Part shown: in pieces, positions 9,302-39,022 of the stretch
Layout of the letters: each line of letters starts with the position of its first letter
Numbering within the stretch: position 1 is the stretch's first letter
Source of the DNA: Candidatus Woesearchaeota archaeon
GTDB lineage: Archaea > Nanobdellota > Nanobdellia > Woesearchaeales > JABGUJ01
Reading direction: 5' to 3'
Assembly (NCBI GenBank): GCA_018646625.1
Contig: JABGUJ010000003.1
Location: forward strand, 268,355-332,354
DNA: 64,000 nucleotides
Made by a program: the position numbers and the translations under genes
The notes under the pieces: model-generated
Told to the model about the DNA's origin: nothing
Database searches by the model: none
The model's input: the letters and a program-made list of their open reading frames with translations, nothing else

Positions 9302-9423
9302 GTGGGGGTAGCAAAGTCTGGTCAAATGCGCAGGACTTAAGGCTATCTTTATGAGACACTTACCTCGTAAGTAAGATATCCTGTCTCTTAGTGAGTTCGT
9401 GGGTTCGAATCCCATCCCCCACA
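9302..9423 (+). tRNA. tRNA-Leu(UAA) with a 36-nt intron
   Basis: The acceptor GTGGGGG/CCCCCAC, with discriminator A, is closed by a T arm GTGGG-TTCGAAT-CCCAT. A D arm (GCA/TGC) and a class II variable arm (CTC/GAG) are present. The anticodon stem CAGGA/TCCTG encloses CTTAAG, giving anticodon TAA. A 36-nt insert (9342-9377) after position 37 contains the hairpin CTTAC/GTAAG and an ATCTT/AAGAT pairing, as expected for an archaeal bulge-helix-bulge intron. The mature length is 86 nt and CCA is not encoded. A TATA-like TTTAAATA lies at about 9267. Confidence 0.9.
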
Positions 9424-13598: not shown

Positions 13599-15077
13599 AT
13601 GTTTAGAAGAAAAGCACAAAACATCAAACCGGTAACATCACTTGACGATATTAGACACGAGCCTACTACACAACCAAAAGCTAGAAGCTATGGTTTTGGA
13701 ATGTTTGCATCTGCGGCACTATTACTCCTAGCATTAGGCGTAGGCGCATGTAGCGGAAGTTCAGTAGAAGGTGAAGATTTACACGGCGCTCCAGATAATA
13801 TTTGTGCTTTAGCTGATTGCTCCGGACCAGACCCAATTCCTCCAAGATACGATCCTATAGATACTTTTGATGAACTATCAGATTACGTAACTTTTGATCC
13901 TAACCCTGTTAGCGGTGGACTAGATATCCAACCAGATGAAATGGAAAAACTTTACGCTAGCAATACTAACAATATAAGAGAATTACTAGGAAAATACTTC
14001 GCAGATGTTGTAGAAGCAAATCCTGACTTATCTCCCGTTCCTTTAACTTCAACAGATGAGTATCAAACTAACAGAACTGTTGACAACTTAATTGGAGAAT
14101 TGGCAAACGGCGACGATGCATTTGACGCTTACAGATTCTTAGTAAAAGACGGAAAATTATACTTAGAATTAATTGATGAAGATGGAGACTTCACTAACGG
14201 AGTATTCGTGTTTGACGACATGGATCTTGCAGATGCTGTAAGAAAAGCAGTTGAAGAACCCGATCCAGTTGTACCAACAATCGAATACAAAGTCGATTTA
14301 ACAAAAAGCGTAAATGAAGTTATCTTAGGTAATGATTTAACAGAAGATGATTCCATTTTATACAATCTTAACGTTCAAAGAATCACAAGATATGGTTTAG
14401 ATGATGCAGAGATAGAAAACATCGAAGTACCAAATGTACTATACACAGTAAGACTTGGCGGCTCTGACAGTTATCAGTTAAGAGCAGGAGAAAGCGTTGA
14501 GTTTGATTACGAAGGAAATACTGTTAATGCATTTGTTGATGAACTAGGAGATCTTTTAGTAGATTTCTCAGGTAATGGTACAAGTGAAGTATTTGTAGCT
14601 TCGGCAACTGTAGAACTTGAACCAGGATTAGATGAAACAGTTAGTGGTAGCAACCCTGTTACTCACCAAGCGCCTTCAGTAGAAGATCCAGAATACGATC
14701 TACAAGATGCAGAACTTCTATACGGAGTAGCATTTGATAGCTATACAGATAGTATGCCAACTGGTATGGATTACATACTAGATGGAGCAACTCTAAGAAA
14801 TGTATTACAAAACGCAGTAGCATCTGACTCTGTTGAAGGAAACCCAACACTTAGCTCAGAAGTTCTACCAGGCGTAACATTAGTAGACGCGATCTTAGGT
14901 ATTGAAACTGCAGATGGCAACGTTGGTTACTTAGATGGAATTGGAGATGATATAATCTCAGTTGCAGCTAGTCCAGATCAAGTTGCATTTGAATTTGCAG
15001 ATGGAACATACGGTGTAGCTACAGGAACAATGGCAGCAGATCTTTACGATCCAATTGACGAATCTATGCAATGGTAA
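13599..15077 (+). CDS. Acidic surface lipoprotein
   Basis: 492 aa. GGAGG (13588-13592) fixes the ATG, so the unusually long 33-residue n-region before the hydrophobic segment is real. The signal sequence ends in a lipobox (LGVGAC, Cys at about 51), so the mature protein is probably lipid-anchored outside the cell. The rest is very acidic, with D/E-rich beta segments and many Gly, consistent with an extracellular fold that may bind cations. It ends 7 nt before the start of the giant adhesin. No domain recognised. Confidence 0.75.
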   Translation: MFRRKAQNIKPVTSLDDIRHEPTTQPKARSYGFGMFASAALLLLALGVGACSGSSVEGEDLHGAPDNICALADCSGPDPIPPRYDPIDTFDELSDYVTFDPNPVSGGLDIQPDEMEKLYASNTNNIRELLGKYFADVVEANPDLSPVPLTSTDEYQTNRTVDNLIGELANGDDAFDAYRFLVKDGKLYLELIDEDGDFTNGVFVFDDMDLADAVRKAVEEPDPVVPTIEYKVDLTKSVNEVILGNDLTEDDSILYNLNVQRITRYGLDDAEIENIEVPNVLYTVRLGGSDSYQLRAGESVEFDYEGNTVNAFVDELGDLLVDFSGNGTSEVFVASATVELEPGLDETVSGSNPVTHQAPSVEDPEYDLQDAELLYGVAFDSYTDSMPTGMDYILDGATLRNVLQNAVASDSVEGNPTLSSEVLPGVTLVDAILGIETADGNVGYLDGIGDDIISVAASPDQVAFEFADGTYGVATGTMAADLYDPIDESMQW

Positions 15078-15084
15078 AATAAAA

Positions 15085-18000
15085 ATGGCAGAAAGAAAAC
15101 AATTAAGACAATTATTCGCATTGATTTGCATCGTAGTAATGCTTTTCGCAAACGCACAGTTCGCATTAGCAGGTGCATCACCAATAACAACCTCTGCAAG
15201 TGTACTTACCAGTCCATTGTTAATTAACCAACCCATCTCTATCAGAGTTTCTGCATCCGATCTAGATGATAACGTTAATTCACTAAAACTAGCAAGAATC
15301 GAATTAGGATCTCAAACAGAACAACAATACTATTACGGATGTAGTAGTGGCAGTTGTACTCATGATTTTGTTATTTACCACAACACTCCCGGTACTTACG
15401 AATACACAGCATTTGGTAGAAACGCAATCAATCAAATTAGCGCAACATCATTCACAATCACAGTTAGCGAAGCAGCAAGCATTGACAGCTTCACCGTTAA
15501 AGCAAAAGCTTACGATCTAACAACTACAGCATCAATCAACCCATTCACATTCAACGTATTTAACGAAAACGAAAACTACATAACTGGAACTACAGGAAAT
15601 CCTGAAGCAGCAGTATACAATATTGACAGCAACGCAGTATTAAATTTAGAATATCTAGCAGATGGATACGAAAGAGATGGAGACATGGCATATTTTGATG
15701 CAGATCTATCTACTTGTTCAGGTTCAAGCTGTTCAGTTAGTAGTAATGGGTATTCAACTGATTGTACTTTCATCACTGCAAATAGCAGATGGACTTGTAC
15801 AGTAGACAACATTGGTGGCGGAACTTTTGATTACCAATACAAAAAAGAAGGCAGCCAAGATGTTATTTATTTATACAATAATATGCTAGAGGAAGCAGCA
15901 GCCCTCCCTCCTGCAATTGTAGGATTCCCTGATTCAATCACAATCCACGAAGGAAGTTATAGCGATTTCTACTTACTAGACAACTATGTAATTGATGAAG
16001 ATACCAGCTTTGCATATTTAGACTGGAGCATTTCATATGATTCACAAATTGGATACAATCTAGATTCTGAAAAAGTAAGATTCTATGCAAAGAACTCAGA
16101 CTACCACGGAACTAGAACATTAACACTTACAGTAGAAGATCCAGAAGGCGGAGAAGATACTCATGATGTTGACATTGTTGTAGAAAACATTAATGACGCA
16201 CCAGTACTTGCACCTCTTTCAGATGTAGAAATTGATGAAAACGAAACTGCAACTTTTACAGTTAGTGCAACAGACTCTGATCTAGACGATTTAACATATT
16301 CATACATTTCAGGTCTAACTTTAACTGAAGGCAGCCTAAACACTTACAGCTACACTTCAACTTATGATGATGTAACAACTGGAGCATACGAAGAATATCA
16401 AGTTGAATTCAAAGTAGAAGACGGAAATGGTGGCGAAGACACTGAAACTGTTACAATCAAAATTAATCATGTAAACAGAGCACCAACTTTAGACTCTGTA
16501 GAAATAACACCTCTTAGCCCAGTATTAGATGAAACACTAACTTGTTCATACACTGGACTAAATGATGAAGATGTTCAAGACACACCAGTTGTCCAATATG
16601 AATGGCGACTTAATGACGCAATGTTCCTATCAGGAGAAAGCGCCAGCACTCTAGATCTTTCATTAATTGACGAAGTAATTGGAGACGAAATAACATGTAT
16701 TGCAACTCCTAATGATGGAACTATAGATGGTGAAAGCAAACAAGCTACTGTAACTGTAGTAGATGCTAGCAGCCCAATCATACATTCAATTGACGTAACT
16801 CAGCCAGCATACATTGGAAATACTTTAACATTTAGCGCGACTGTAACTGATGACATCTCAGTCAGCGAAGTAACATTCACAATTAACTCAATCGCATATT
16901 CAAGCGAATTAACACAAGTAGGACAATTATACACTCTACAACTTAGTGCAGAAAGCATCGGTGTTGGAACATTTAACTTCAGAGTTGACGCAGAAGACAA
17001 CTCAGGTAACGCAGCAACACCTCAAGACATGAATTTTACTATTGAAAATGAACAAGTTATTCCTGTAATCCAAGAAGTACTTGCAGTTCCTAGTTCAGTA
17101 GTTCAAGGAAACGATGTACAGCTTAGAGCAAGAGTAACTGATAACGACGCAGTATCATCTGTAGAAGTAACATTTAACGGAATCACATTAGGTATGAGTT
17201 CAATTGGTGGAGATTGGTATCAAGCAACCATCTCAACTACAACTCTGGCACCTAACACATATACATTTACTGTTAATGCAGAAGATAACGTAGGAAACGC
17301 AGCAGTTCCAATGGATGGAACATTCGACGTAACTATATTAGATACTGAAGCTCCAGTTATTGAAGAAACTAATGCAACACCTAATCCAGTAACTCAAGGA
17401 GACGATGTAACTCTTAGTGCAAGAGTAACTGATAATGTTGCAGTCAGTACTGTAACTACAACAATCAGTGGAATCACACTTAACGCATTTCCAGCTGGCG
17501 GAGATTGGTACGAAGTAACCATCTCAACTCTAGTATTGCCTCTAGGAACTAACCTATTCTCATTCAACGCAGTAGATAATGAAGGTAATGTAGCTACAAC
17601 AATTGTTGACTCATTCACAATTGTAGAAGAAGACACTACTGGACCATCTATCTCAAACATTACTGTAACTCCAAATCCAGTTACTGAAGGTAACATAGTA
17701 ACCATCACAGTAGTTGTTGATGATATTTCTGGTGTAGATGAAGTTGTTCTAACTTACGGCACCACAGATGTAACTATGACAAATACTGGTGGAAATACAT
17801 ACTCAGTAGAAATTGACACAACTGGTTTCGCTGCAGCAGAATACACATTTACTATTGCAGCTACAGATAATGAAGCTAATATTAATACTGCAGACAGCAG
17901 CTTTACTGTTGAAGATGCAGATACTGAAGCACCAGTTATTGAAGAAACTGACGCAGTTCCTAATCCAGTAACTATTGGAGATGAGGTAACTCTTAGTGCA

Positions 18001-21000
18001 AGAGTAACTGATAATGTCGCAGTAACTTCTGTAACATTTATTCTAAACGGAATTCCATTTACTATGGCCGCTGTTGGAGGAGACTGGTATGAAGCAAATA
18101 TCGATACTGGCGCTTTGTCGCTAGGAACTCACAATTTCACTGTTAATGCAATTGATGCAGAAGATAACAACGCAGTTCCAGTTAACGACACTTTTGAAGT
18201 AACTGACGTACCAGATACTGAAGATCCCACTATAGAAGATATTACTTTAACTCCTAACCCAGTAACTCAAGGAGAAAACGTTACAGTATTAGTTAAAGCA
18301 TCTGACAACACAGGTGTCGATACAGTTACTGCAGAAATTGATGGAGTTGAATACAATTTACCTCTAAACGCAGCAGGACATTACGTAGTTGATGTTGACA
18401 GCTCAAGCCTGGCACCCGGAAACTACACAGTCACTATCACCGTTACAGACGCAGCTGGAAACAGCGTAGTAGATACTAGCAACACATTGGAAGTTCTTCC
18501 TGGAATTGTAGTAGATGCTGAAGCTCCAGTTATTGAAGAAGTTGAAGCAACTCCTAACATAGTAACTCAAGGAGATAGTATAGCAATTGGAGCAAAAGTA
18601 ACTGATAATATTGCAGTAACATATGTATTATTCACTCTAGATGGAGTATCACTAGAGATGTCTTCAGTTGGTGGAGATTGGTATCAAGCAACCATCGGCA
18701 CAGCAACTTTAGCACCAGGATCACACACATTCACAATTAACGCAAATGATGCAGAAGGAAACAATGCATTACCAGTTAACGGCACATTCACTGTTGAAGA
18801 AGATGTAGACAGCGAAGCACCTGTATTCATTGATACTACCATCCCAACTAACACAATCAATCTAGGAGATGGATTCACACTCGAAGCAGAAGTTACTGAC
18901 AATGTCGCAGTTGACGATGTAAGAGTATCATTCGGAGTTGGCAGCATAAACATGCCTAACTTAGGAGGAGATGATTACGGAGCAGGACTCAACTCAAGCT
19001 CATTAGGTGTGGGAATATTCTCAGTACAAATGACTGCAGAAGACACATCAGGAAACATAGCTTACGAATACGCAGGATTAATCTCTATCATAGACAATTC
19101 TACAAATTCAAGCGATGATCACGAAGCTCCACTTATTACAATAACCAGTCCAGTACAAGATGCAACTTACAATTACACAGACATCTTAGTTAGCATTTCA
19201 GCTACAGATAACGTAGGAGTATCATATATTAGATACTCAGTTAACGGAGCACCATTTGTTCCATACACCAGCATTACAACCGAAAGCTTTGTTGACATGC
19301 AAGAAAACACACTAGAAGTTGTTGCAAATGATGTTGCAGGAAATGTAGCATATGCACAAATAACATTCTTAGTTAATACTTCAAGTAACAACGAAAATGG
19401 AACTGATGATTCATTCCCTGTTGCTACACTAATTACAACACCAGAATCAGGAGAAGCCCCACTAAATGTTGCATTCAATTGCTTCGTTAATGGCGGAGAT
19501 TCAAGCTATGATTTTGAAATGAACTACAACGACAGCACAGCATCAGACATGGTAAACAACACACTTACTACGTTACAAGGATTCTTGCACCAATATACTC
19601 TTGCAGGAGATTACGGAGCAGCATGTATTGTTTCAGACGATGATGGAGACTATTCCATCGCAACAGCAAACATACACGTAACTGCACCACCTCAAGTTAA
19701 TCATTCCCCCGTTATTGAAATGGTTGGAGCATCACCTAATCCGGTTACCGAAGGCACAGATGTAAATCTACAAGCAACTGTAACTGATGTTGATGGAGAC
19801 ATGAACCTTGTTCAGTTTGAATTCCAAGGAACATTCTATAACAATGTGTACGATGGAGATGATAATTACGAATTTGACTTACCAACTACAGGATTAGCAC
19901 CTGGAGTATACTACTTCAACGTTGGCGCTGAAGATTTAGCATTCCTAACTGATGGACCGGTACAAGGAAACTTTACAGTAATTGGAAATATAATTAACGA
20001 TACAGAAGCACCGGTATTCAACTTTGTAGACTATCCAACTCAAATTGAACTAGGACATCCTGCCACATTCAGAGCAAACATAACTGATAATGTTGCTGTA
20101 AATGATGCAAGACTAGAAGCATACAACACATGGGCAATGCCAAACGTTGGCAGCGACTGGTACGAAACTACTCAAATAATTCCCGTCCCAAGTCCAGGAT
20201 TATACTCCTTCTGGATGGCAGCACAAGATACTTCAGGTAATCTAGGATTTGAATACTTAAGTCCAATCAACTTTACAAACAGCAGCGTTGATCCAAATGA
20301 GGATAACGAAGCTCCAACTATCAAAATATACAGTCCAAAGAATAATGCAACTTACAACTACACAAATATCAAAGTAAGCATTGATGCTCAGGACAATGCA
20401 GGAATTGCTAGCTTAGAATATTCTATTGATGGCACATTACCTCAAGCATATCCTGGAGTATTTTACTACAACTTTACAGACATGCAAACTCATACTCTAA
20501 GAGTTATAGCTATTGACATTGCAGGAAATACAGCAATTGTTGAAATATCATTTGATGTTAACACCAGTGCTAACTACACAGAAGGTGTTGATCACTTCCC
20601 TGCAGCAACTCTTACAGCAAACGTTACTGAAGGAACTGAACCACTAGACGTACTATTTACTTGTGCAACTACTGATGGAGACGCAGACTTCAACTATCAT
20701 TTATCATTCGGAAACGGTCAAGCACCTGAAGATGTAACTACAAACGCAACTTCGGCAGAATTCACTTCAACCTACAATCAAGGAGTATACACAGCAGTGT
20801 GTAAGCTAACTGATGTAGATGGAGATTATTCGCAAGCAAGCATCAATCTTAACGTTACAGAAGATCCTAACACAAACCACAGTCCAAGTATTGACGCTGT
20901 CGGTTCATCACCTCTTGGTGTTGTAACAGGCAACAATGTAACTTTACAAGCATCTGTTAGCGACTTAGATAACGACATGAACACAGTATTCTTCGAATTC

Positions 21001-24000
21001 GAAGGAATCAACTACACAGATTTATACAACGGAGATAACAATTACGAATTTAACTTACCAACTACAGGTCTAGCACCAGGACTATACTACTTCAATGTTT
21101 ATGCAGAAGATTTAGGACTATTAACTGCAGGACCAGTCATGGGTAGTTTTTTAGTAATTAATCTAACTCCAATAAACCATCCACCAGTTATCAATGGCGC
21201 ATTTGCAGTTGCACCAACTACAGAAACACTATTTGCAAACGTAGATTTCTACGCAGATGTAAGTGATGTAGATAACAACATGGGCTCAGTAACTTTCGAA
21301 TTTGAAGGTATTAACATGACTGACCTATATAATGGAGATAATGCATACTCCGCAGGCGTTATTATTGCAAATCTAACTGCAGGAACATACTACTTTAATG
21401 TTTACGCAGAAGACTTAACATTCTTAACTGACGGACCAGTACAAGGAAACTTTACAGTCTTACCAGCTCCAAGCACAAACAATTCACCAGTTATTGAAAG
21501 TGTAAACTCACCATCCGTATTAGAAGGAGATGTTGCAGAGCTTATTGCAAACGTAACAGACCTAGACAACAACATGGGAACAGTAACATTTACTCTATTC
21601 AATACAACTAGTGAAATCGTTTTATTCAATGGAGACACACTATACAACTTTAACGTTCCAACTACAGGACTAGCACCTGGCGTATATGCATTTAATGTAT
21701 ATGCAGAAGACACTGCAAGTCTAAGTGATGGACCAGTTTCAAGCAACTTTACAGTTGTATTCAACCCAGCTCTAAATCACAGTCCAAGCATTGACATGGT
21801 TGGCGCATCACCTAATCCAGTTACTGAAGGAAACAACGTAACTTTACAGGCAACTGTAAGCGATCTAGATGGTGACATGAATAATACTTACTTTGAATTC
21901 CAAGGAGCTAACTACACAAATACATACGATGGAGATGATAATTACGAATTTAATCTACCTACTACTGGCTTAGCGGCAGGAACATACTACTTCAACGTTT
22001 ACGCTGAAGATTTAGCATTCCTAACTGATGGACCTACACAAGGTAGCTTTACAGTATTAACATCACCATTAAATGATACAGTACCTCCAACAATTTGGGA
22101 TGTAGATTATCTACAAAACTATGAACTAGGTACTTTGATGACTTTCACAGCTAACGTAACTGATGACGGTGGCGTAGCAAATGTTGTTTTAATCACAAGC
22201 TTAGGAGAGACTACTTTAGTCCCACTAGGAAACGATTTATTCCAAGCAACTCTAAACTCTAGTTTATTCGGAGCAGGATTATTCCAGTTCTCAGTAAGAG
22301 CTACAGATGTTGCAGGAAATGAGCAACTCGAATTCCTAAACACCATTAACATTAGTAACAGCAGTGTAAATCCAAATACTGATAACGAAGCACCACAAAT
22401 TACACTATTCAGTCCAATTGACGGTGCACTATACAATTATACAGACATTTTAGTACAGATGCAAGCAACTGACAACGTAGGAGTCAACACATTACAATAC
22501 TCCATCAACTCAGGAGCATTCCAAGATTACATTGGAGCAATAACTGAAACGTTTGTTGATTTACAAACTAACACACTACATGTTGTTGCAGAAGATCTTG
22601 CAGGAAACACAGCAAGCGTATACATTAGTTTTGACGTTAATACAACTAACAACAACACTAATGGAACTACTGACTTGTTCCCTCAAATCTCAATCTCAGC
22701 AAACGTTACTGAAGGTCAAGAACCTCTTGACGTAACATTCACTTGTACTGTTAATAGCGGCAATCCTGGATACCATTATGGTATTGACTTTGGAAACGGC
22801 TTACCAGGACAAGGCGCTGTTACAACAAACACTTCAGTAACTTTCAGTACAACTTACAACGCAGCAGGACTATATACTGCAATGTGCGAAGTAACAGATG
22901 TAGATACTGATTATTCATCAGCACAAATGCAAATCAACGTTAGTGCAGATCCTAACCTAAACCACAGTCCAAGTATTGACGCAGTTGGCGCATCACCTAC
23001 AACAGTAACCGCGGGTGACAATGTAACTCTACAAGCAACTGTAAGCGATCTAGATGGCGACATGAATAATACTTACTTTGAATTCCAAGGAGCTAACTAC
23101 ACAAATACATACGACGGAGATGATAATTACGAATTTAATCTACCTACCACAGGCCTAGCACCAGGAACATACTACTTCAATGTTTACGCAGAAGACCTAG
23201 CGTTCCTAACTGATGGACCAGCACAAGGTAGCTTTACGATATTAACAGCTCCAAGCACAAACAATTCACCAGTTATTGAAAGTGTAAATTCACCATCTGT
23301 ATTAGAAGGAGATGTTGCAGAGCTTATTGCAAACGTAACAGATCTAGACAACAACATGGGAACAGTAACATTTACTCTATTCAACACAACTAGTGAAATC
23401 GTTTTATTCAATGGAGACACACTATACAACTTTAACGTTCCAACCACAGGACTAGCACCGGGTGTATATGCATTCAATGTATATGCAGAAGACGCTGCAA
23501 GTCTAAGTGATGGACCAGTTTCAAGTAACTTTACAGTTGTATTTAACCCAGCTCTAAATCACAGTCCAAGCATTGACGCAGTAGGAGCATCACCTTCAAC
23601 AGTTGTTGCAGGAGATAACGTAACTCTACAAGCATCCGTTAGTGACTTAGATAATGACATGGGAACAGTATTCTTCGAATTCGAAGGAACAAACTATACT
23701 GATCTATACAACGGAGATAACTCATACGAGTATAATCTACCAACAACTGGCTTAGCGGCAGGAGTATACTACTTCAACGTTTACGCTGAAGATTTAGCAT
23801 TCTTAGCTGACGGACCAGTACAAGGTAGCTTCACCGTTACTAACACATCAGTTAACGACACAACTCCAATAGTTAACCTAACAGGTACTCCAACTACTGG
23901 ATTAAGAGAATTGTCAGTTAGCTTTACTTGTGATGTAACTGAAGGAGAAACTCCATATGCATATAACATGGCATTCGGAGATGGAAACTTCGAGACTAGA

Positions 24001-25152
24001 AGCACAAACTCAACTTCAGAAATATTTGCACACAATTACACAACTGGAGATTACACTTCAACTTGTACTGTAACAGATGTAGATGGAGACTCAGATGTTG
24101 ACACTCTCAACATTAATGTAACTCCAAACACTGTACCAATCGCAGACGCAGGACTTGACCAGACAATAAATGTAAGCACAGTAGCAACTCTTAATGGTTC
24201 AAACTCCAGTGATGCAGATAATGACACTTTAACATTTGCATGGATCCAAGTATCTGGACCAGAAAATGTTACACTTGACAATTCAAGTGCAGCTATAACT
24301 ACATTTACTCCAACAACACCAGGAGTCTTTGTGTTCGAATTAAATGTATCCGACGGCTACAACTCTAGCACAGACCAAGTCACTATTAACGTAGGAGACA
24401 TTAACGGAGTAGTTGGCGGTTACGTACTTGACGAAAACAATGTAGGTGTAGCAAATGCAATTGTAGAAATCAAATTAAACAACTACACTGTAGATTCAAC
24501 TTTTACTGACGCAACAGGTATGTATTCACTTAACGTGACTGCAGGCACATACAGCCTAAGAGCACTTAAACCAGGATACAGTATCGCAACAGAATCAGCA
24601 ACAATCATACAAGAACAAACTATCGAAGTTAATCTAACTATTGAATCAAACAATGGCGGCTTCATAGGTGAAACTAAAGAAATTGATGATTCTGCTGAAG
24701 AAGACGTAAATGTCAGTGTTGATTTAACGAGCATGTTCGATTTGAGTGATTCAAATGGTGACTATTATATAGGAAATGTTCCAGTTAGCTCATATAACTT
24801 GAGTGCAGAAAAGACTGGTTTCCTACCACAACAGAGCACGGGACATTCAATAGTAGATGATCAAAACACTACAGTTGACTTTGCGATGAGTGAACCTGGA
24901 ACAGTGAGTGGTACTATCTATGACTACTTTAATTATCCAAACACTGTTGCAAACGCAACAATTACAGTAACACAAGACGGAGTTGTAATAAACATAACCA
25001 CTGCGAATACCGCGGGTGTTTATTCAATTGCAGACCTGGCACCAGGATTGTACACAATCACTGCAAGTGCACCAGGATACAACGACCAGACATTTAGTCC
25101 TGTACAGATATTATCTGGACAAGCAACGACTAGAAACTTCGCACTAGCATAA
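15085..25152 (+). CDS. Giant secreted adhesin-like protein with Ig-like, cadherin-like and PKD repeats
   Basis: 3355 aa from ATG at 15085, where a signal peptide begins (MAERKQLRQLFALICIVVML). After a Cys-containing N-terminal region come cadherin-like modules (about 270-560, with NDAPVLAPLSD). Bacterial Ig-like repeats of about 95 residues follow (about 560-1330, each starting EAPVIEE-x-A-x-PNPVT). PKD modules lie at about 1445, 1835, 2530 and 2930. About eight copies of another Ig-like repeat (NHSPSIDAVGASP ... YYFNVYAEDLAFLTDGP) fall between about 1540 and 2920. A PKD/REJ-type module (about 3015-3110) and carboxypeptidase-regulatory-like domains close the protein. Dozens of N-x-S/T sequons suggest heavy glycosylation. 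There is no C-terminal TM helix, so the next gene product may hold it to the cell. Likely role: attachment to host or surface. Confidence 0.88.
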   Translation: MAERKQLRQLFALICIVVMLFANAQFALAGASPITTSASVLTSPLLINQPISIRVSASDLDDNVNSLKLARIELGSQTEQQYYYGCSSGSCTHDFVIYHNTPGTYEYTAFGRNAINQISATSFTITVSEAASIDSFTVKAKAYDLTTTASINPFTFNVFNENENYITGTTGNPEAAVYNIDSNAVLNLEYLADGYERDGDMAYFDADLSTCSGSSCSVSSNGYSTDCTFITANSRWTCTVDNIGGGTFDYQYKKEGSQDVIYLYNNMLEEAAALPPAIVGFPDSITIHEGSYSDFYLLDNYVIDEDTSFAYLDWSISYDSQIGYNLDSEKVRFYAKNSDYHGTRTLTLTVEDPEGGEDTHDVDIVVENINDAPVLAPLSDVEIDENETATFTVSATDSDLDDLTYSYISGLTLTEGSLNTYSYTSTYDDVTTGAYEEYQVEFKVEDGNGGEDTETVTIKINHVNRAPTLDSVEITPLSPVLDETLTCSYTGLNDEDVQDTPVVQYEWRLNDAMFLSGESASTLDLSLIDEVIGDEITCIATPNDGTIDGESKQATVTVVDASSPIIHSIDVTQPAYIGNTLTFSATVTDDISVSEVTFTINSIAYSSELTQVGQLYTLQLSAESIGVGTFNFRVDAEDNSGNAATPQDMNFTIENEQVIPVIQEVLAVPSSVVQGNDVQLRARVTDNDAVSSVEVTFNGITLGMSSIGGDWYQATISTTTLAPNTYTFTVNAEDNVGNAAVPMDGTFDVTILDTEAPVIEETNATPNPVTQGDDVTLSARVTDNVAVSTVTTTISGITLNAFPAGGDWYEVTISTLVLPLGTNLFSFNAVDNEGNVATTIVDSFTIVEEDTTGPSISNITVTPNPVTEGNIVTITVVVDDISGVDEVVLTYGTTDVTMTNTGGNTYSVEIDTTGFAAAEYTFTIAATDNEANINTADSSFTVEDADTEAPVIEETDAVPNPVTIGDEVTLSARVTDNVAVTSVTFILNGIPFTMAAVGGDWYEANIDTGALSLGTHNFTVNAIDAEDNNAVPVNDTFEVTDVPDTEDPTIEDITLTPNPVTQGENVTVLVKASDNTGVDTVTAEIDGVEYNLPLNAAGHYVVDVDSSSLAPGNYTVTITVTDAAGNSVVDTSNTLEVLPGIVVDAEAPVIEEVEATPNIVTQGDSIAIGAKVTDNIAVTYVLFTLDGVSLEMSSVGGDWYQATIGTATLAPGSHTFTINANDAEGNNALPVNGTFTVEEDVDSEAPVFIDTTIPTNTINLGDGFTLEAEVTDNVAVDDVRVSFGVGSINMPNLGGDDYGAGLNSSSLGVGIFSVQMTAEDTSGNIAYEYAGLISIIDNSTNSSDDHEAPLITITSPVQDATYNYTDILVSISATDNVGVSYIRYSVNGAPFVPYTSITTESFVDMQENTLEVVANDVAGNVAYAQITFLVNTSSNNENGTDDSFPVATLITTPESGEAPLNVAFNCFVNGGDSSYDFEMNYNDSTASDMVNNTLTTLQGFLHQYTLAGDYGAACIVSDDDGDYSIATANIHVTAPPQVNHSPVIEMVGASPNPVTEGTDVNLQATVTDVDGDMNLVQFEFQGTFYNNVYDGDDNYEFDLPTTGLAPGVYYFNVGAEDLAFLTDGPVQGNFTVIGNIINDTEAPVFNFVDYPTQIELGHPATFRANITDNVAVNDARLEAYNTWAMPNVGSDWYETTQIIPVPSPGLYSFWMAAQDTSGNLGFEYLSPINFTNSSVDPNEDNEAPTIKIYSPKNNATYNYTNIKVSIDAQDNAGIASLEYSIDGTLPQAYPGVFYYNFTDMQTHTLRVIAIDIAGNTAIVEISFDVNTSANYTEGVDHFPAATLTANVTEGTEPLDVLFTCATTDGDADFNYHLSFGNGQAPEDVTTNATSAEFTSTYNQGVYTAVCKLTDVDGDYSQASINLNVTEDPNTNHSPSIDAVGSSPLGVVTGNNVTLQASVSDLDNDMNTVFFEFEGINYTDLYNGDNNYEFNLPTTGLAPGLYYFNVYAEDLGLLTAGPVMGSFLVINLTPINHPPVINGAFAVAPTTETLFANVDFYADVSDVDNNMGSVTFEFEGINMTDLYNGDNAYSAGVIIANLTAGTYYFNVYAEDLTFLTDGPVQGNFTVLPAPSTNNSPVIESVNSPSVLEGDVAELIANVTDLDNNMGTVTFTLFNTTSEIVLFNGDTLYNFNVPTTGLAPGVYAFNVYAEDTASLSDGPVSSNFTVVFNPALNHSPSIDMVGASPNPVTEGNNVTLQATVSDLDGDMNNTYFEFQGANYTNTYDGDDNYEFNLPTTGLAAGTYYFNVYAEDLAFLTDGPTQGSFTVLTSPLNDTVPPTIWDVDYLQNYELGTLMTFTANVTDDGGVANVVLITSLGETTLVPLGNDLFQATLNSSLFGAGLFQFSVRATDVAGNEQLEFLNTINISNSSVNPNTDNEAPQITLFSPIDGALYNYTDILVQMQATDNVGVNTLQYSINSGAFQDYIGAITETFVDLQTNTLHVVAEDLAGNTASVYISFDVNTTNNNTNGTTDLFPQISISANVTEGQEPLDVTFTCTVNSGNPGYHYGIDFGNGLPGQGAVTTNTSVTFSTTYNAAGLYTAMCEVTDVDTDYSSAQMQINVSADPNLNHSPSIDAVGASPTTVTAGDNVTLQATVSDLDGDMNNTYFEFQGANYTNTYDGDDNYEFNLPTTGLAPGTYYFNVYAEDLAFLTDGPAQGSFTILTAPSTNNSPVIESVNSPSVLEGDVAELIANVTDLDNNMGTVTFTLFNTTSEIVLFNGDTLYNFNVPTTGLAPGVYAFNVYAEDAASLSDGPVSSNFTVVFNPALNHSPSIDAVGASPSTVVAGDNVTLQASVSDLDNDMGTVFFEFEGTNYTDLYNGDNSYEYNLPTTGLAAGVYYFNVYAEDLAFLADGPVQGSFTVTNTSVNDTTPIVNLTGTPTTGLRELSVSFTCDVTEGETPYAYNMAFGDGNFETRSTNSTSEIFAHNYTTGDYTSTCTVTDVDGDSDVDTLNINVTPNTVPIADAGLDQTINVSTVATLNGSNSSDADNDTLTFAWIQVSGPENVTLDNSSAAITTFTPTTPGVFVFELNVSDGYNSSTDQVTINVGDINGVVGGYVLDENNVGVANAIVEIKLNNYTVDSTFTDATGMYSLNVTAGTYSLRALKPGYSIATESATIIQEQTIEVNLTIESNNGGFIGETKEIDDSAEEDVNVSVDLTSMFDLSDSNGDYYIGNVPVSSYNLSAEKTGFLPQQSTGHSIVDDQNTTVDFAMSEPGTVSGTIYDYFNYPNTVANATITVTQDGVVINITTANTAGVYSIADLAPGLYTITASAPGYNDQTFSPVQILSGQATTRNFALA
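21465..21795 (+). repeat. 331-bp intragenic repeat, copy A (partner at 23247-23577)
   Basis: This segment encodes one Ig-like module starting NNSPVIESVNSPSVLEG. It is nearly identical at the DNA level to 23247-23577, with only scattered, mostly silent changes. That points to recent duplication or gene conversion inside the adhesin gene. Confidence 0.85.
21838..22035 (+). repeat. 198-bp intragenic repeat, copy A (partner at 23023-23220)
   Basis: It encodes most of the module with FQGANYTNTYDGDDNYEF and matches 23023-23220 nearly base for base. The offset between copies (1185 bp) differs from that of the neighbouring repeat (1782 bp), so the modules moved or converted separately. Confidence 0.85.
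23023..23220 (+). repeat. 198-bp intragenic repeat, copy B
   Basis: Partner of 21838-22035. The differences seen are mostly at third codon positions, for example GATGGT/GATGGC and ACTACT/ACCACA. Confidence 0.85.
23247..23577 (+). repeat. 331-bp intragenic repeat, copy B
   Basis: Partner of 21465-21795. Module order is swapped relative to the 198-bp repeat: there A precedes B, here it follows. Domain shuffling rather than a single block duplication explains this. Confidence 0.85.
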
Positions 25153-25157
25153 GAAAA

Positions 25158-26870
25158 ATGAGAAATAAAAAAAACCTAACAATTTTCAGCGTAATGCTAC
25201 TAGTATTACTTCCAGCAGTATTTGCAGGATCATGGAGCGGAAACGTTTATGACACAGCAGGAACTGCAGTGGACCAAGCAGACGTAGCACTATTACTTAA
25301 CAGTGCAACAGAAAACTCATCACAAACAGACGCTAGTGGATTCTTCGAAGTCTCAGGACTACAAGATGGATATTATACTATCGCAGTAACAAAAACAGGT
25401 TACTACGACGCATCATTAGTTACAGGTATTTACCTAAACAACTCAGATGCAAGTAAAACAAACTTATCACTAATACCTGGCATTATGGACATTATTATGG
25501 TAGAGCAACTTCCTGGAAATTTAGCAGGAACAGTAACTGACCCAAATGGGAACGTAACTGACGCAACAATAAACTTAACACAACCAAGTGGCACTATTGC
25601 ATCAGGCAACTCTGACGCAACTGGTAACTATGATATTTCAGTAATAGAAGGCACCTATACAGTAACTATTAGTGCACCTGGCAGAATAACTCAAACTAGA
25701 AACAACGTTGTAATTGCACCTAATGCAACAACAACTTTAAACATATACCTTAGCCTACAACCAGGCGATGTACAAGGTACTGTACGAGACGCAATTAACA
25801 ATAACATAATTGAGAATTCAACTGTAGTTATTGAAGGTACTAGCCATGTTGCATTTACTGACGCAACAGGACAATACCTAATAACTAATGTTCCTCAAGG
25901 AACATATATCTGCACGGCATCAGCTGCAGGATACTATGATTCTAGTGTTGGATGTACTATACTTCCCAGTGGAATCATCACTGTTGATTTTTATTTAACT
26001 CCAACCAACATCAACGATACAGATGGAGATGGAATTGAAGATAGCCTAGACAACTGCCCACTAACATCTAACCCAGGTCAAGGAGACTCAGATAATGATG
26101 GAGTAGGTAACGTATGTGACAACTGTAAGAGTAACTCTAACTCAAACCAGAAAGATACTGACAACGACGGAGTAGGTAACGTGTGTGACAACTGTCCAAG
26201 CCATTCTAACTCTAATCAGTATGATAGTGATGGAGACGGTCAAGGCGAAGTATGTGACACTACTAACCGACGTAGAGGCGGCGGTGGCGGCAACAGCGGA
26301 GGTTCCTTCGTTGTAACTAAAACATTAGATTTTAGTAGTACTAATCCAGTATGTGACGAATATAGCAGATACGAACAGATTAGTTTCAACTTTAACAATA
26401 AAGCTTATACACTAAATTTCGAAAAAGTTAAGATTGCACCTATGTACTTATCAAAATCAGAAGTAACTATGATGTTCAGTGGAGCATCAAAAGAAAGTTT
26501 CTCAGTTAAGTACAACCAGAGACAATATCTTGACTTAAACGGAGATGGAATTAACGACATCAAAGTAAGTTTTGACAAAGTTAATGCAATCAAGAACAAA
26601 GTGTACCTATGTTTTGAACTACTTCCACAAGATGTAACAAGCGTAGTTACTAAAAAAGATGATACACCAATAGACAAACCTGCTGCAGAAAAGGTTAAAG
26701 AAGACGTTAAAGAAATCGTTGAAAAAGTTAAGGAAGGAATCCTAAACATTTTTGGTGAAGTAACTGAAAAGAAACCAGCATCTGCATTAGTCGGTGCATT
26801 AATCATCCTAGCAATTGTCTTGCCAGGAATCTTATTGTATTTGTTCTTGTTTAGAAAAAGAAGGTACTAA
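25158..26870 (+). CDS. Membrane-anchored surface protein with CarboxypepD_reg and thrombospondin type 3 repeats
   Basis: 570 aa, starting 5 nt after the adhesin stop. A signal peptide (MRNKKNLTIFSVMLLVLLPAVFA) is followed by three carboxypeptidase-regulatory-like domains (about 25-105, 115-195, 200-280). Calcium-binding thrombospondin type 3 repeats follow (about 287-370, D-x-DGDGIED, DNDGVGNVCDNC twice). A poly-Gly linker and a beta-rich domain (about 385-490) lead to a Lys/Glu-rich stalk, a TM helix (about 545-566) and a basic end FRKRRY. It is the only gene of the operon with a canonical C-terminal anchor and so is a good candidate for tethering the giant secreted protein. Confidence 0.85.
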   Translation: MRNKKNLTIFSVMLLVLLPAVFAGSWSGNVYDTAGTAVDQADVALLLNSATENSSQTDASGFFEVSGLQDGYYTIAVTKTGYYDASLVTGIYLNNSDASKTNLSLIPGIMDIIMVEQLPGNLAGTVTDPNGNVTDATINLTQPSGTIASGNSDATGNYDISVIEGTYTVTISAPGRITQTRNNVVIAPNATTTLNIYLSLQPGDVQGTVRDAINNNIIENSTVVIEGTSHVAFTDATGQYLITNVPQGTYICTASAAGYYDSSVGCTILPSGIITVDFYLTPTNINDTDGDGIEDSLDNCPLTSNPGQGDSDNDGVGNVCDNCKSNSNSNQKDTDNDGVGNVCDNCPSHSNSNQYDSDGDGQGEVCDTTNRRRGGGGGNSGGSFVVTKTLDFSSTNPVCDEYSRYEQISFNFNNKAYTLNFEKVKIAPMYLSKSEVTMMFSGASKESFSVKYNQRQYLDLNGDGINDIKVSFDKVNAIKNKVYLCFELLPQDVTSVVTKKDDTPIDKPAAEKVKEDVKEIVEKVKEGILNIFGEVTEKKPASALVGALIILAIVLPGILLYLFLFRKRRY

Positions 26871-28649: not shown

Positions 28650-30149
28650 ATGCATAAACTAAAAGTAAAAGACATGGATTTAGAAAGCGGAGGACCGCTA
28701 ATAGCCATCATAAATCAAGAAGACGCAACCACTCTTGATCTATACACCGCAGACAGAATTAGAATCAAAAAAGGCAGAAAAGAGATCGTTGCCATCACAG
28801 ACATTGCAATTTCTAACAAACTTCTGAAACCTGGAGAAATCGGACTATTTGAAGAAGGTTTAATCAGATTAGGTGTTAAAAACCGAGAAACAGTTAGCAT
28901 AAACATAGACCGAAAACCTGAATCTCTTCACATCATCAAGAAAAAAATGAATAAAGAATCCTTGAATGATAAAGAGATTAGGAAAATTGTAGAAGATATA
29001 GTTGAAGGAAATCTCAACCAAATCGAATTAACCTACTACGTCGCTGCCAACTACATAAACGGTATGAACGATAAAGAGACTGTTGCTCTAACTAAAGCAA
29101 TGATCGATACAGGAGACAGAATAGAAATAAAAGGAAAAGACAAAATTGTTGTTGATAAACACTGTATTGGTGGAGTGGCTGGAAACAGAACCACGACAAT
29201 TGTAGTTCCAATTCTTGCAGCCGCAGGACTATATGTACCAAAAACATCTTCAAGATCAATTACATCTCCAGCAGGAACTGCAGATACTATGGAAGTTATT
29301 TGTAACGTAACATTACCTATTGAAAAAATTGAAAAAACAATTAAAAAAACAAACGGATGCATGGTTTGGGGAGGCGCAGTCAACTTGGCACCCGCAGACG
29401 ACACAATCATCAACGTCGAACACCCGCTAAGCATCGATGCAGAAGGACAATTATTAGCATCCATCTTAGCAAAGAAAGGATCAGTTTCTGCAAAATATGT
29501 TTTAATTGATATTCCAACAGGAAAAGAAGCTAAAGTTAAAACATTAAAGAAAGCAAATCACCTTGCAAACCAATTCAAAAAAATCGGATCAAAGATTGGC
29601 ATGAAAGTTATTTGTACATTAACTGACGGTAACGAGCCAGTTGGAAATGGCATAGGTCCTGGATTAGAAGCTCGTGATATTCTATGGTTATTCAAAGGAG
29701 ATAAGCGCGCACCTCAAGATCTTATCGAAAAATCCGTTAACCTTGCAGGTTTAATGTTAGAATTAACAGGAAAAGCAAAGAAAGGCAAAGGAAAAGAAAT
29801 GGCGAAAGAACTATTAGATTCTGGCGCGGCTTCAAAGAAGTTCATGGAAATTGTTAAAGCACAAGGTGCAAGGATCACAAAACCAGAAAAAATACCATTA
29901 GGTAAGTACAAATTCAATTATGTTTCTAAAAAGACTGGCAAAATAAAACACATATCAAATAAACACATTGCAAAAATTGCAAGAATCGCAGGCTGCCCTA
30001 AAGACAAAAAAGCAGGACTTTATTTACATAAAAAGAAAGGCGATTGGGTGAAAAAAGGAGACATAATCATGACCATCTACTCCGACAACAGCACTAGATT
30101 AAAGTACGCCAAAGCAACGTTTGAAGAGATTAATGGCATAAAGCTCTAA
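28650..30149 (+). CDS. deoA: AMP phosphorylase (archaeal DeoA-like)
   Basis: 499 aa, the usual length of archaeal AMP phosphorylases, which carry an extra N-terminal domain (about 1-85) absent from bacterial thymidine phosphorylase. The catalytic region has KHCIGGVAGNRTTT (phosphate and nucleobase binding), KTSSRSITSPAGTADTME and the C-terminal pyrimidine-phosphorylase domain. Known reaction: AMP plus phosphate gives adenine and ribose 1,5-bisphosphate, which feeds the R15P isomerase/type III RuBisCO route. It starts 1 nt after the permease stop. Neither isomerase nor RuBisCO is in the window. Confidence 0.92.
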   Translation: MHKLKVKDMDLESGGPLIAIINQEDATTLDLYTADRIRIKKGRKEIVAITDIAISNKLLKPGEIGLFEEGLIRLGVKNRETVSINIDRKPESLHIIKKKMNKESLNDKEIRKIVEDIVEGNLNQIELTYYVAANYINGMNDKETVALTKAMIDTGDRIEIKGKDKIVVDKHCIGGVAGNRTTTIVVPILAAAGLYVPKTSSRSITSPAGTADTMEVICNVTLPIEKIEKTIKKTNGCMVWGGAVNLAPADDTIINVEHPLSIDAEGQLLASILAKKGSVSAKYVLIDIPTGKEAKVKTLKKANHLANQFKKIGSKIGMKVICTLTDGNEPVGNGIGPGLEARDILWLFKGDKRAPQDLIEKSVNLAGLMLELTGKAKKGKGKEMAKELLDSGAASKKFMEIVKAQGARITKPEKIPLGKYKFNYVSKKTGKIKHISNKHIAKIARIAGCPKDKKAGLYLHKKKGDWVKKGDIIMTIYSDNSTRLKYAKATFEEINGIKL

Positions 30150-30234
30150 ACAGCCCCTAAAGCAATAATTCTACAATTTAAGCCAGATTAGAGCTTCCGA
30201 AAGCTATATAAAGGAGTGAAACTACTACACAGTC

Positions 30235-31263
30235 ATGACAGAGCTAGGTATTTTGGTAGAAAAGCTAAGTATGGCAGTTACAGGGCTAGAAAGCTCATTT
30301 GATATTGAGACATCTAGAACACGAGTTACTGAACTAGAAAGATTAATGATAGAAGGTCAAACGACTGCAGCACTGTCTAGAGAATATAACAGACTAGAAC
30401 CATTAGTTAGAAATTATGAAGATCTCAGCAAATCAGCAGAAGATGCAAGAGGATTCTGCGATTTAACAATAGTAGAAGGGGATGATGAAGATCAAGCCTC
30501 CGCCGCAGAAGAAATTACAGAATGTATAGATGGAATAAGAGACTTTGTTCTTGGTAGAAGTTTCAAAGGAAAATATGATAACAATAATACAGTCATCACA
30601 CTTCAAAGAGCAACCGTAGGAAAAGATGAAGTCACATTCGCTATGAATAAACTTGCAGAAGCATACGTAAACTATGCCAAGTCAAAAGGACTAAAAGCAG
30701 ATGTTCTAGATTCAGATCCAAAATCATACACAATTAAGATTAGCGGAGAAAACGCATACGGATTGTTCAAAGGAGAACACGGAAAACACAGAGTAATTTA
30801 CACAGGAGATAGAAGTAAAACCCATACTGCTTATGTAATTGCGTCTGTCGAACCAGAGATCGAAAGAACCAGAAGAACCTTCCAGAGATCAGAAGTAAGA
30901 TACGAATTTTTATCAGCTAGCAGCAAAGGCGGACAACACGCAAACAAAGCAGAAACTGGAGTTAGACTAACACACACACCAACTGGAAAGACGGCAACAG
31001 TAAGAACACGATCTCGTGCACAGAGCCTAAGAGCTGCAGAAAAAATATTAGCAAGCAGAATCGCCATAGCAGAAATAGGAGCAACAAGAGTCGTACCCGA
31101 AATTGATCCAGGAAAAGGCGGATATCTAAGAACTTACAGATTTGCTAGCGGACAATACATTAAAGATCATAGAACAGAAACAAGGACAACAGACATGAAT
31201 GCATTTTTTAGAGGAGATGGAATAGACGCATTTATTTTAGCATATCACAATCTTAACTTTTAA
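30235..31263 (+). CDS. Bacterial-type class I release-factor-like protein (RF2/PrfH superfamily)
   Basis: 342 aa. A TATA box (GCTATATAAAGG, about 30204) 27 nt upstream indicates leaderless mRNA. A helical N-terminal domain resembling RF domain 1 (about 1-105) precedes a middle domain with KISGENAYGLFKGEHGKHRV (compare RF2 YGWL/F...G-HRL). The GGQ loop is SSKGGQHANKAETGVRLTH with HTPTGKTA after it (about 226-250). The C-terminal YRFASGQYIKDHRTETRT corresponds to the RF2 R-SYV-x-RIKDLRT end. The stop-codon reading loop (SPF in RF2, PxT in RF1) is replaced by a short YTGDRSK segment. Canonical archaeal aRF1 is unrelated in fold. Likely a ribosome rescue or specialised peptidyl-tRNA hydrolase. 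Confidence 0.88.
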   Translation: MTELGILVEKLSMAVTGLESSFDIETSRTRVTELERLMIEGQTTAALSREYNRLEPLVRNYEDLSKSAEDARGFCDLTIVEGDDEDQASAAEEITECIDGIRDFVLGRSFKGKYDNNNTVITLQRATVGKDEVTFAMNKLAEAYVNYAKSKGLKADVLDSDPKSYTIKISGENAYGLFKGEHGKHRVIYTGDRSKTHTAYVIASVEPEIERTRRTFQRSEVRYEFLSASSKGGQHANKAETGVRLTHTPTGKTATVRTRSRAQSLRAAEKILASRIAIAEIGATRVVPEIDPGKGGYLRTYRFASGQYIKDHRTETRTTDMNAFFRGDGIDAFILAYHNLNF

Positions 31264-31264
31264 A

Positions 31265-32026
31265 ATGAAAAGACTAATAGCAATACTAGTATTGGCACTT
31301 TTCTTAGTTAGCGGATGCAGTACTCAAATACAAGAAGAAGTAGATTATCAAATATCGCCAAATCCTATAGCCAAAACATACACTACAAGTCATATGCCTG
31401 TACAAGGTTTTGCAATAGAGCATGATAATAGAAATGAAATACTAGAATTCTATAAAGAAGCACAAAAAAGAAAACAAGCAAGAAATAAACTATTAGCAGA
31501 AAGTGATGCAGAAGAAGATGCTAACAACCTTGCAGAAAAGAGATGGCAAAGAAGATTCACTATATCAACACCTCTTGGAAATTATCATAGCGTTGACGAA
31601 GTAGAATCAATCTTCGGCACAAGAAGAGCAGCACAAGACTTCTCATTTTTAGGATTAGTATACGCAATGAAATATGCATGTTACAAATTCGAAGATGATG
31701 ACAAACAGTTCGAATCCATATGTTACGAATACAGAGCTTTTGAAAAAAGCTATCCCGATTTTATAGATAAAGAAATGTACAAAGAAATGAAAGAAAGATT
31801 GAAAAGAGAATATGAACTAATGGGCATCGAAAAATACTATGAATATCAAGAAAAGATTGGCCAACACGATATCAACAACTTCAGATCATTCGTCATGTTC
31901 ATACAAAAATACAAAATAGAAGATCCAAAAGAATATGATAAGTTTAGAGATGAAGTAAGAAAAGTCTACCAAGACTTCCATTCACAACATGTTACTAGTG
32001 ACGAATCTAAACCTAGCTTCTACTAA
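31265..32026 (+). CDS. Lipoprotein of unknown function
   Basis: 253 aa beginning 1 nt after the release-factor-like gene. A signal peptide with lipobox LVSGC (Cys at about 18) is followed by a mainly helical, charged domain (about 50-245) with many E/K residues and three Cys in the centre. Exported and lipid-anchored by prediction. No family recognised. Its tail overlaps the convergent gene at 32023 by 4 nt. Confidence 0.7.
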   Translation: MKRLIAILVLALFLVSGCSTQIQEEVDYQISPNPIAKTYTTSHMPVQGFAIEHDNRNEILEFYKEAQKRKQARNKLLAESDAEEDANNLAEKRWQRRFTISTPLGNYHSVDEVESIFGTRRAAQDFSFLGLVYAMKYACYKFEDDDKQFESICYEYRAFEKSYPDFIDKEMYKEMKERLKREYELMGIEKYYEYQEKIGQHDINNFRSFVMFIQKYKIEDPKEYDKFRDEVRKVYQDFHSQHVTSDESKPSFY

Positions 32027-37876: not shown

Positions 37877-39022
37877 ATGAGAGACGTTGTGTATGAACCA
37901 AGAGAGGATTCTTTTCTTTTAGAAAAATATGTTAAAAAATTAGCTCTTGGCAAAGTGCTAGATGTTGGAACTGGTTCAGGCATTCAAGCTTTAACAGCCT
38001 CTAGATTAAAGAAAGTCAAAAGTGTTCTGGCAGTTGATATTAATCAGAATGCTGTTGATGCATTAAAACACACAAAACTAAAAGTTAAAATCTCAAATTT
38101 ATTTTCAAATGTTAAAGGCGAATACGATACAATAATATTTAACGCACCATATCTACCTAATGATCCAAGAGTTAAAGACTTGGCTCTGGACGGAGGAAAA
38201 AACGGTTATGAGGTTACCGAGAGATTTCTTAACACATTACCAAATCACCTATCTAAAAACGGAATTACCATATTATTAATTAGTTCTCTAACCAAAAAAG
38301 AATACATTGAATCAGTACTAAACAATAATTTACTAAGTTTCGAAATTCTAGAAGAAGAAAGCTGTTCTTTCGAAATAATGTATGTATATAAAATCTGGAA
38401 AAATAGTTTAAGACTTGAACTTGAAAAAAAAGGAGTTAGAAATCTTTGTAAACTCACTCACGGCAAGAGAGGAAATATTTTTACAGGTCAATACAAAGAT
38501 AAAAGAATAGCAGTTAAAGCGAAAAGGGAAGAAAGCGATGCAATGGGCACAATAAATAGAGAATTTAAAGTATTAAATAGATTGAATAGACACAACATCG
38601 GGCCAAATGTTCTATTCTCAGGAGATAATTATTTTGCATATGATTTCATACCAGGTAAATTCATTCTAGATTATTTTGAGAACTCGTCTAACGAAAGAAT
38701 AATCACCATTCTAAAGAATGTAATGAAGCAAATGCGAACCTTAGACAAACTAGGTTTCAACAAAGAAGAAATGCACCACCCATACAAACATGTTATTATA
38801 GGTAAAAGAATCGCTTTATTAGATTTTGAAAGGTGTGTTCCAACGGAAAATCCGCACAATGTTACACAGTTCTGTCAATTTTTGATATCTAATATGTTAA
38901 ATAATGTGGTTTCTAAGAAAAAGATTAAGTTTGATAAGAAGAAAATAATCGCTTTGGCTAGAAAATACAAAGCAGAACAATCTGAAGAAAACTTCAAAGA
39001 AATATTTAACATAATAAAATGA
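37877..39022 (+). CDS. Mtq2/HemK2-like N5-glutamine methyltransferase fused to a COG2112-like kinase domain
   Basis: 381 aa. Residues 1-180 are a class I SAM methyltransferase: YEPREDSFLL (typical of Mtq2), VLDVGTGSGIQAL (SAM site) and NAPYLPND in the NPPY position that holds the target Gln. Residues about 185-380 resemble the RIO/Bud32-like COG2112 kinases: GKRGNIFTG (P-loop), AVKAKRE (Lys), REFKVLNRL (Glu), KEEMHHPYKHVII and LLDFERC (metal-binding Asp). Mtq2 with Trm112 methylates the GGQ Gln of class I release factors. The gene overlaps ogt by ATGA. The fusion partner is unusual for this enzyme. Confidence 0.85.
   Translation: MRDVVYEPREDSFLLEKYVKKLALGKVLDVGTGSGIQALTASRLKKVKSVLAVDINQNAVDALKHTKLKVKISNLFSNVKGEYDTIIFNAPYLPNDPRVKDLALDGGKNGYEVTERFLNTLPNHLSKNGITILLISSLTKKEYIESVLNNNLLSFEILEEESCSFEIMYVYKIWKNSLRLELEKKGVRNLCKLTHGKRGNIFTGQYKDKRIAVKAKREESDAMGTINREFKVLNRLNRHNIGPNVLFSGDNYFAYDFIPGKFILDYFENSSNERIITILKNVMKQMRTLDKLGFNKEEMHHPYKHVIIGKRIALLDFERCVPTENPHNVTQFCQFLISNMLNNVVSKKKIKFDKKKIIALARKYKAEQSEENFKEIFNIIK

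Follow-up and report, generated by a model that had tools for sequence, protein, structure and literature searches.

A bacterial-type class I release-factor-like protein with an altered stop-codon-reading loop in a Woesearchaeales archaeon

The stretch of DNA analysed here (the window; 64,000 nucleotides from a Woesearchaeota archaeon) encodes a 342-residue protein that belongs to the bacterial class I release factor superfamily by its PCRF and RF-1 domains, its GGQ motif and its fold. The protein has the architecture of a release factor, its host is an archaeon, the motif that reads stop codons has been lost while GGQ has been kept, and the gene coexists in one genome with the archaeal factor aRF1 and a Pelota-like protein. 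We propose that it is a domesticated, RF2-related peptidyl-tRNA hydrolase, which would work on archaeal ribosomes that have stalled or been damaged and would read no stop codon, and we give this functional reading about an even chance of being right. The protein represents a new form within a known superfamily; the fold as such is not new. The parts of the gene and its immediate surroundings are as follows.

30205-30212, plus strand: candidate TATA-like box TATATAAA, 30 nt 5' of the start codon; boxes lie about 30 nt before the ATG in both homologues too
30235-31263, plus strand: release-factor-like gene, bacterial-type class I, 342 aa (open reading frame, Pfam/NCBIfam, predicted structure and PDB matches)
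30235-30564, plus strand: domain 1, the predicted four-helix N-terminal domain, residues 1-110 (predicted structure)
30619-30630, plus strand: start of helix 5, GKDE, residues 129-132, canonically GG[TD]E, the second G being replaced (alignments)
30799-30822, plus strand: shortened decoding loop YTGDRSKT, residues 189-196, at the site of SPF/PxT (alignments; a hairpin in the model)
30928-30936, plus strand: GGQ catalytic motif, residues 232-234 (translation; present in all three members)
31105-31143, plus strand: switch-loop region DPGKGGYLRTYRF, residues 291-303, in which the Trp of RF2 is lost (alignment)
31265-32026, plus strand: small lipoprotein-like open reading frame, 2 nt past the release-factor stop (list of open reading frames)

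A first-pass annotation, made from the sequence letters, had recognised a GGQ loop with RF2-like segments on both sides, and the translation of 30235-31263 indeed contains KGGQHANKAETGVRLTH, YGLFKGEHGKHRV and YIKDHRTETRT. In profile searches both superfamily domains were over their Pfam cut-offs (PCRF, 8.7e-19; RF-1, 1.6e-13), and the top NCBIfam model was prfB, at 156 bits against a cut-off of 370 bits; the two archaeal homologues described below score 138 and 135 bits and likewise stay under it. The match to RF1 (prfA) was weaker, at 102-108 bits where the cut-offs are 400 or more, and solved RF2 chains matched in phmmer from 4e-34. An AlphaFold2 model (pLDDT 85.9, pTM 0.80), built on an input alignment of 20 viral release factors that did not hold the two archaeal homologues, predicts four N-terminal helices (residues 3-21, 24-39, 45-81 and 84-109), a decoding domain, a GGQ loop at low confidence and a C-terminal part. 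This prediction bears out the earlier statement that the protein, unlike ArfB or PrfH, retains an N-terminal helical domain. The best PDB matches of the model are RF2 and RF1 over nearly the full length (Foldseek E 1.6e-24; VIA-align Z up to 27 over 321 residues), and PrfH structures align with about 107 residues, at Z 9-10; mtRF1 structures are also among the PDB matches of the protein, mitochondrial sequences being absent from our alignment and tree. Sequence models and predicted structure agree on a full release-factor architecture with domain 1, decoding domain 2/4 and GGQ domain 3.

For the decoding region we used a 74-sequence alignment and took counts over its 63 canonical-type factors (RF1, RF2 and viral), leaving out the PrfH-type rows. 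In every one of these 63 factors the segment from a conserved His to a conserved Thr is exactly 17 residues long, and in all 63 it holds an SP[FYT] or PxT tripeptide. The corresponding segments of the three archaeal proteins have 14, 13 and 14 residues (HRVIYTGDRSKTHT, HKIIYFDGSKKQT and HRFIYYVADGKKQT) and no such tripeptide; in the window protein the segment runs from H185 to T198, so the earlier claim that SPF/PxT is missing and the loop replaced was upheld. The model predicts a beta hairpin (183-190/196-207) at this place. Further contacts have changed as well: the second Gly of the helix-5 GG motif (G130) is K, D and K in the three members, the near-invariant Arg before the loop (R189) is Tyr in all of them, S199 is lost according to the alignment counts, and the switch-loop Trp of RF2 is missing. 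Domain 3 has also drifted, with an identity to RF2 of 0.30-0.33 that is little above that of domain 2, and the near-invariant I216, D220, G230, N237, A242, T250, Q261 and N264 differ in at least one member; common to all three are G232, G233, Q234, R244, H247 and S260. The loss of the tripeptide, of loop length and of the Gly and Arg, together with a GGQ kept at 35-39% identity, suggests that the stop-codon contacts were dismantled while the catalytic motif was held. A basic C-terminal tail of the ArfB type, which senses an empty mRNA channel, is absent, the C-terminus reading ...AYHNLNF.

A rebuilt loop might instead have given a release factor a new specificity, for a codon or signal in special mRNAs. 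Domains 2 and 4, which are present and well predicted in the AlphaFold2 model, would suit such a factor, as would the invariant Thr198 and the K-x-[HQ]-T loop end that the members have in common; some codon contact is indeed possible, since two residues of the third-base contact region persist, Thr198 in all members and His197 in the window protein alone. The loop, however, varies among the three members in sequence (TGDRS, FDGS and YVADG) and in length, unlike the invariant SPF/PxT, and its shortening and lack of conservation speak against a codon specificity that is both new and fixed. Moreover, genes of the window end in TAA, TAG and TGA alike, which gives no hint that a stop has been recoded in this stretch, and we regard a factor of new specificity as quite improbable.

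The first-pass annotation had placed the gene in an archaeon, and had named contamination or misassembly as the danger should close archaeal homologues be lacking. Contamination, misassembly or a very recent, functionless transfer would be a rival account of a bacterial-type gene in an archaeal assembly, and other release-factor matches in same-order archaeal bins do have canonical motifs and look like bacterial contamination. The contig of the window gene, by contrast, is 339 kb long and belongs to a genome of 1.57 Mb with 96% completeness and 0.64% contamination; the gene adjoins one for an archaeal AMP phosphorylase (592 bits; cut-off 535). The partial 16S gene, which runs off its contig end, has SSU_rRNA_archaea as its best model, and a search of the genome found an intact aRF1 (425.5 bits, TIGR03676), the release-factor locus not being among the aRF1-model matches; the archaeal host was thereby corroborated. 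A PF00472 search of 287 same-order genomes gave five matches, namely the window gene (the sole match in its own genome), two relatives, and two RF1 genes of canonical type that carry PxT. The relatives, in the genomes G133 (344 aa, 39% identity, 234-kb contig) and G269 (345 aa, 35% identity, 68-kb contig), have genes for RpoL, undecaprenyl diphosphate synthase, FtsZ, FKBP26, S24e and RpoE among their neighbours, which marks both loci as resident archaeal ones, and archaeal homologues on long contigs do exist. The two canonical RF1 genes lie on 8-kb and 5-kb contigs and are most likely bin contamination.

All three genes of the family are preceded, in AT-rich stretches, by a candidate TATA-like box about 30 nt 5' of the ATG. 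This is the layout of a leaderless archaeal promoter, and the position of TATATAAA would be fitting for a leaderless archaeal transcript. The archaeal neighbours and the promoter boxes indicate that the gene is resident and, with the long contig and the homologue loci, largely refute contamination of the window gene; an artefact or a functionless recent arrival is, in our view, hardly credible. Canonical bacterial RF1/RF2 genes occur at the loci L024, L025, L037 and L044 in same-order archaeal bins, most likely as bin contamination.

The surroundings of the gene offer several observations of their own. A 9-bp inverted repeat, AAGCTCTAA/TTAGAGCTT, lies at 30141-30149 and 30188-30196, between the AMP phosphorylase stop and the TATA-like box. 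The downstream open reading frame at 31265-32026 is probably co-transcribed with the release-factor gene and had no Pfam or NCBIfam match. No neighbour gene is common to the three loci, and none of the neighbours is a known rescue or RNA-repair partner. Elsewhere in the window are a 3365-aa open reading frame with repeated surface-protein-like domains (15055-25152, plus strand), followed by a second repeat-bearing membrane protein (25158-26870), and a 122-nt tRNA match whose length suggests an intron (9302-9423, plus strand). At 37877-39022 (plus strand), 6.6 kb downstream of the release-factor gene, there is a HemK2/MTQ2-type methyltransferase (TIGR00537, 122 bits, over the cut-off), the type that methylates the GGQ glutamine of aRF1; its active-site motif is NAPY as against NPPY, and a fused C-terminal region looks kinase-like by weak matches only.

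Members of the family were found in three of about 614 genomes of the phylum, belonging to three different families of one order, and this very sparse distribution suggests a dispensable role. The three-member alignment retrieved no further members across the class, the phylum and two families. Other strong matches in these searches were canonical bacterial RF1/RF2 with PxT or SPF; release-factor matches in G064, G197, G574 and G588 combine canonical motifs with bacterial neighbours and are likely contamination, and G515 gave one weak, short match. A viral origin was rejected: viral contigs, searched with the protein and with the family alignment, gave only canonical-type or short GGQ proteins. 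The protein had no match in the defence library. Among the viral loci, seven (L097-L100, L103, L108 and L109) carry an RF2 that keeps SPF and has Phe in place of the switch-loop Trp, and two (L110 and L127) carry PrfH-like release factors.

In the main tree (32 sequences, with the very long-branched PrfH left out) the three archaeal proteins form one clade (100/100) outside both RF1 (100/100) and RF2 (93/91), which is in line with the earlier view that the protein is not a canonical RF2. In a tree with more viral RF2 rows the archaeal clade stands beside a long viral RF2 branch, and that branch breaks up the RF2 grouping. Topology tests rejected a union of the archaeal clade with Lak-phage RF2 (p 0.0003), with patescibacterial RF2 (p 0.021) and with mollicute RF1 (p 0.018); a union with Firmicute-type RF2 (p-AU 0.064) or gammaproteobacterial RF2 (p 0.051) was not clearly rejected. 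Both profile scores and path distances indicate RF2 as the closest relative, and the simplest history would be that an RF2-like gene was transferred long ago and then changed fast.

Since its release-factor body is complete and GGQ is preserved while the stop-codon reader is dismantled, the protein most likely carries out stop-codon-independent peptidyl-tRNA hydrolysis, and ribosome rescue, one of the two roles suggested in the first-pass annotation, would be its likeliest function. Under the mechanism that we propose, the gene would go back to the class I release factors of bacteria, with RF2 as its closest match in sequence, and would have been domesticated by a few members of a single archaeal order. 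Its product would enter the A site of its own archaeal ribosome in a release-factor-like manner; the stop codon would not be read, the loop being shortened and degenerate and the first-base contact motif changed, and GGQ would be placed in the universally conserved peptidyl-transferase centre, such that the nascent chain could be freed from stalled or damaged ribosomes. We infer that the protein is an active hydrolase, that it binds the archaeal ribosome and that it acts independently of the codon, along with the rescue role and a stalling signal. However, bacterial release factors are not known to function on the cytosolic ribosomes of archaea or eukaryotes; we count this against the proposed mechanism, together with the very sparse distribution, the absence of a shared neighbour, of a known partner gene nearby and of an ArfB-type tail, the residual Thr198 and His197, and the drift of domain 3. 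A role in termination as a replacement for aRF1 was rejected: an intact aRF1 with GGQ, NIKS and YxCxxxF is present in all three member genomes, so ordinary termination is covered and the release-factor-like protein is an extra.

The closest functional precedent for rescue is PrfH, which acts on ribosomes whose decoding centre has been cut and sets the peptide free (PMC9223846). The archaeal protein might accordingly serve a damage response of the same kind, in which a decoding centre cut by a ribotoxin or otherwise altered would be recognised and the peptide released so that the rRNA could be repaired. PrfH likewise departs from RF1/RF2 at the helix-5 GG motif (changed to GP) and in the anticodon regions and is sporadic (PMC1586002; our alignment), and RtcB occurs in all three archaea, the window genome having a second, divergent copy. 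That second RtcB is, however, missing from G133 and G269 and lies on another contig than the window gene, among cell-surface and kinase-like genes, and RtcB is adjacent to the release-factor gene at none of the three loci; furthermore, the PrfH loop is of about full length in the aligned sequences. We therefore consider a damage response of this kind rather unlikely, and a coupling to RtcB was rejected for want of a conserved link across the three genomes. The second RtcB-like protein itself (G000, contig C3; 8549-9922 of locus L160, minus strand) is very divergent, scores 105 bits and is surrounded by kinase-like, glycosyltransferase and methyltransferase genes.

In plastids, proteins derived from RF2 have come to serve in stabilising RNA (PrfB3), and by that precedent the archaeal protein could be a retooled RNA- or ribosome-binding protein without on-ribosome hydrolysis, or could act on free peptidyl-tRNA or split large subunits. 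The retention of GGQ in three divergent members speaks against such retooling, which has little probability in our view, and we continue to favour a stop-codon-independent hydrolase acting on the ribosome.

Our literature search, which covered few subscription journals, turned up no description of a class I release factor of bacterial type residing in archaea, and part of a release-factor survey (PMC6514570) discusses transfers of the fold to eukaryotes and mentions none to archaea. Whether some archaea have their own full-length, stop-codon-blind catalytic rescue factor of bacterial type beside aRF1 and Pelota is a proposition that we rate a little short of evenly balanced. Bacterial and archaeal release factors have unrelated folds and are thought not to be interchangeable; if the proposition is true, a bacterial-type GGQ protein would have been rebuilt for the ribosome of another domain of life, and the A site and peptidyl-transferase centre would be similar enough for cross-domain use once codon reading is dropped. 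To our knowledge, splitting by Pelota/ABCE1 is the only form of rescue known in archaea, to which a catalytic route would then be added.

Set beside known systems, the archaeal members resemble RF2 (prfB) in GGQ and, for the window protein, in the predicted four-domain fold and in the best sequence-model (156 bits) and structural matches, but they are without SP[FY], their loop is 3-4 residues shorter, the helix-5 GG and the switch-loop Trp are lost, their scores are far under the prfB cut-off, and their host is archaeal. RF1 (prfA) is alike in fold and GGQ, whereas the archaeal members have no PxT and fall outside the RF1 clade. With PrfH (RFH) they have in common a changed helix-5 motif and decoding region, a sporadic occurrence and a kept GGQ; PrfH, however, has no domain 1 and lies beside RtcB2, while domain 1 is present in the model of the window protein and no RtcB is adjacent. 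ArfB/YaeJ and C12orf65/mtRF-R have the GGQ domain in common with the archaeal members, for which we propose the same stop-codon-independent release, but they are without domains 1, 2 and 4 and carry a basic tail, whereas the window protein has all four domains and no such tail. aRF1 and Pelota would share the ribosomal site, in termination or rescue, but are of unrelated fold and are encoded by separate genes in the same genomes. By the features tested, the window protein is neither RF1/RF2 nor PrfH nor ArfB.
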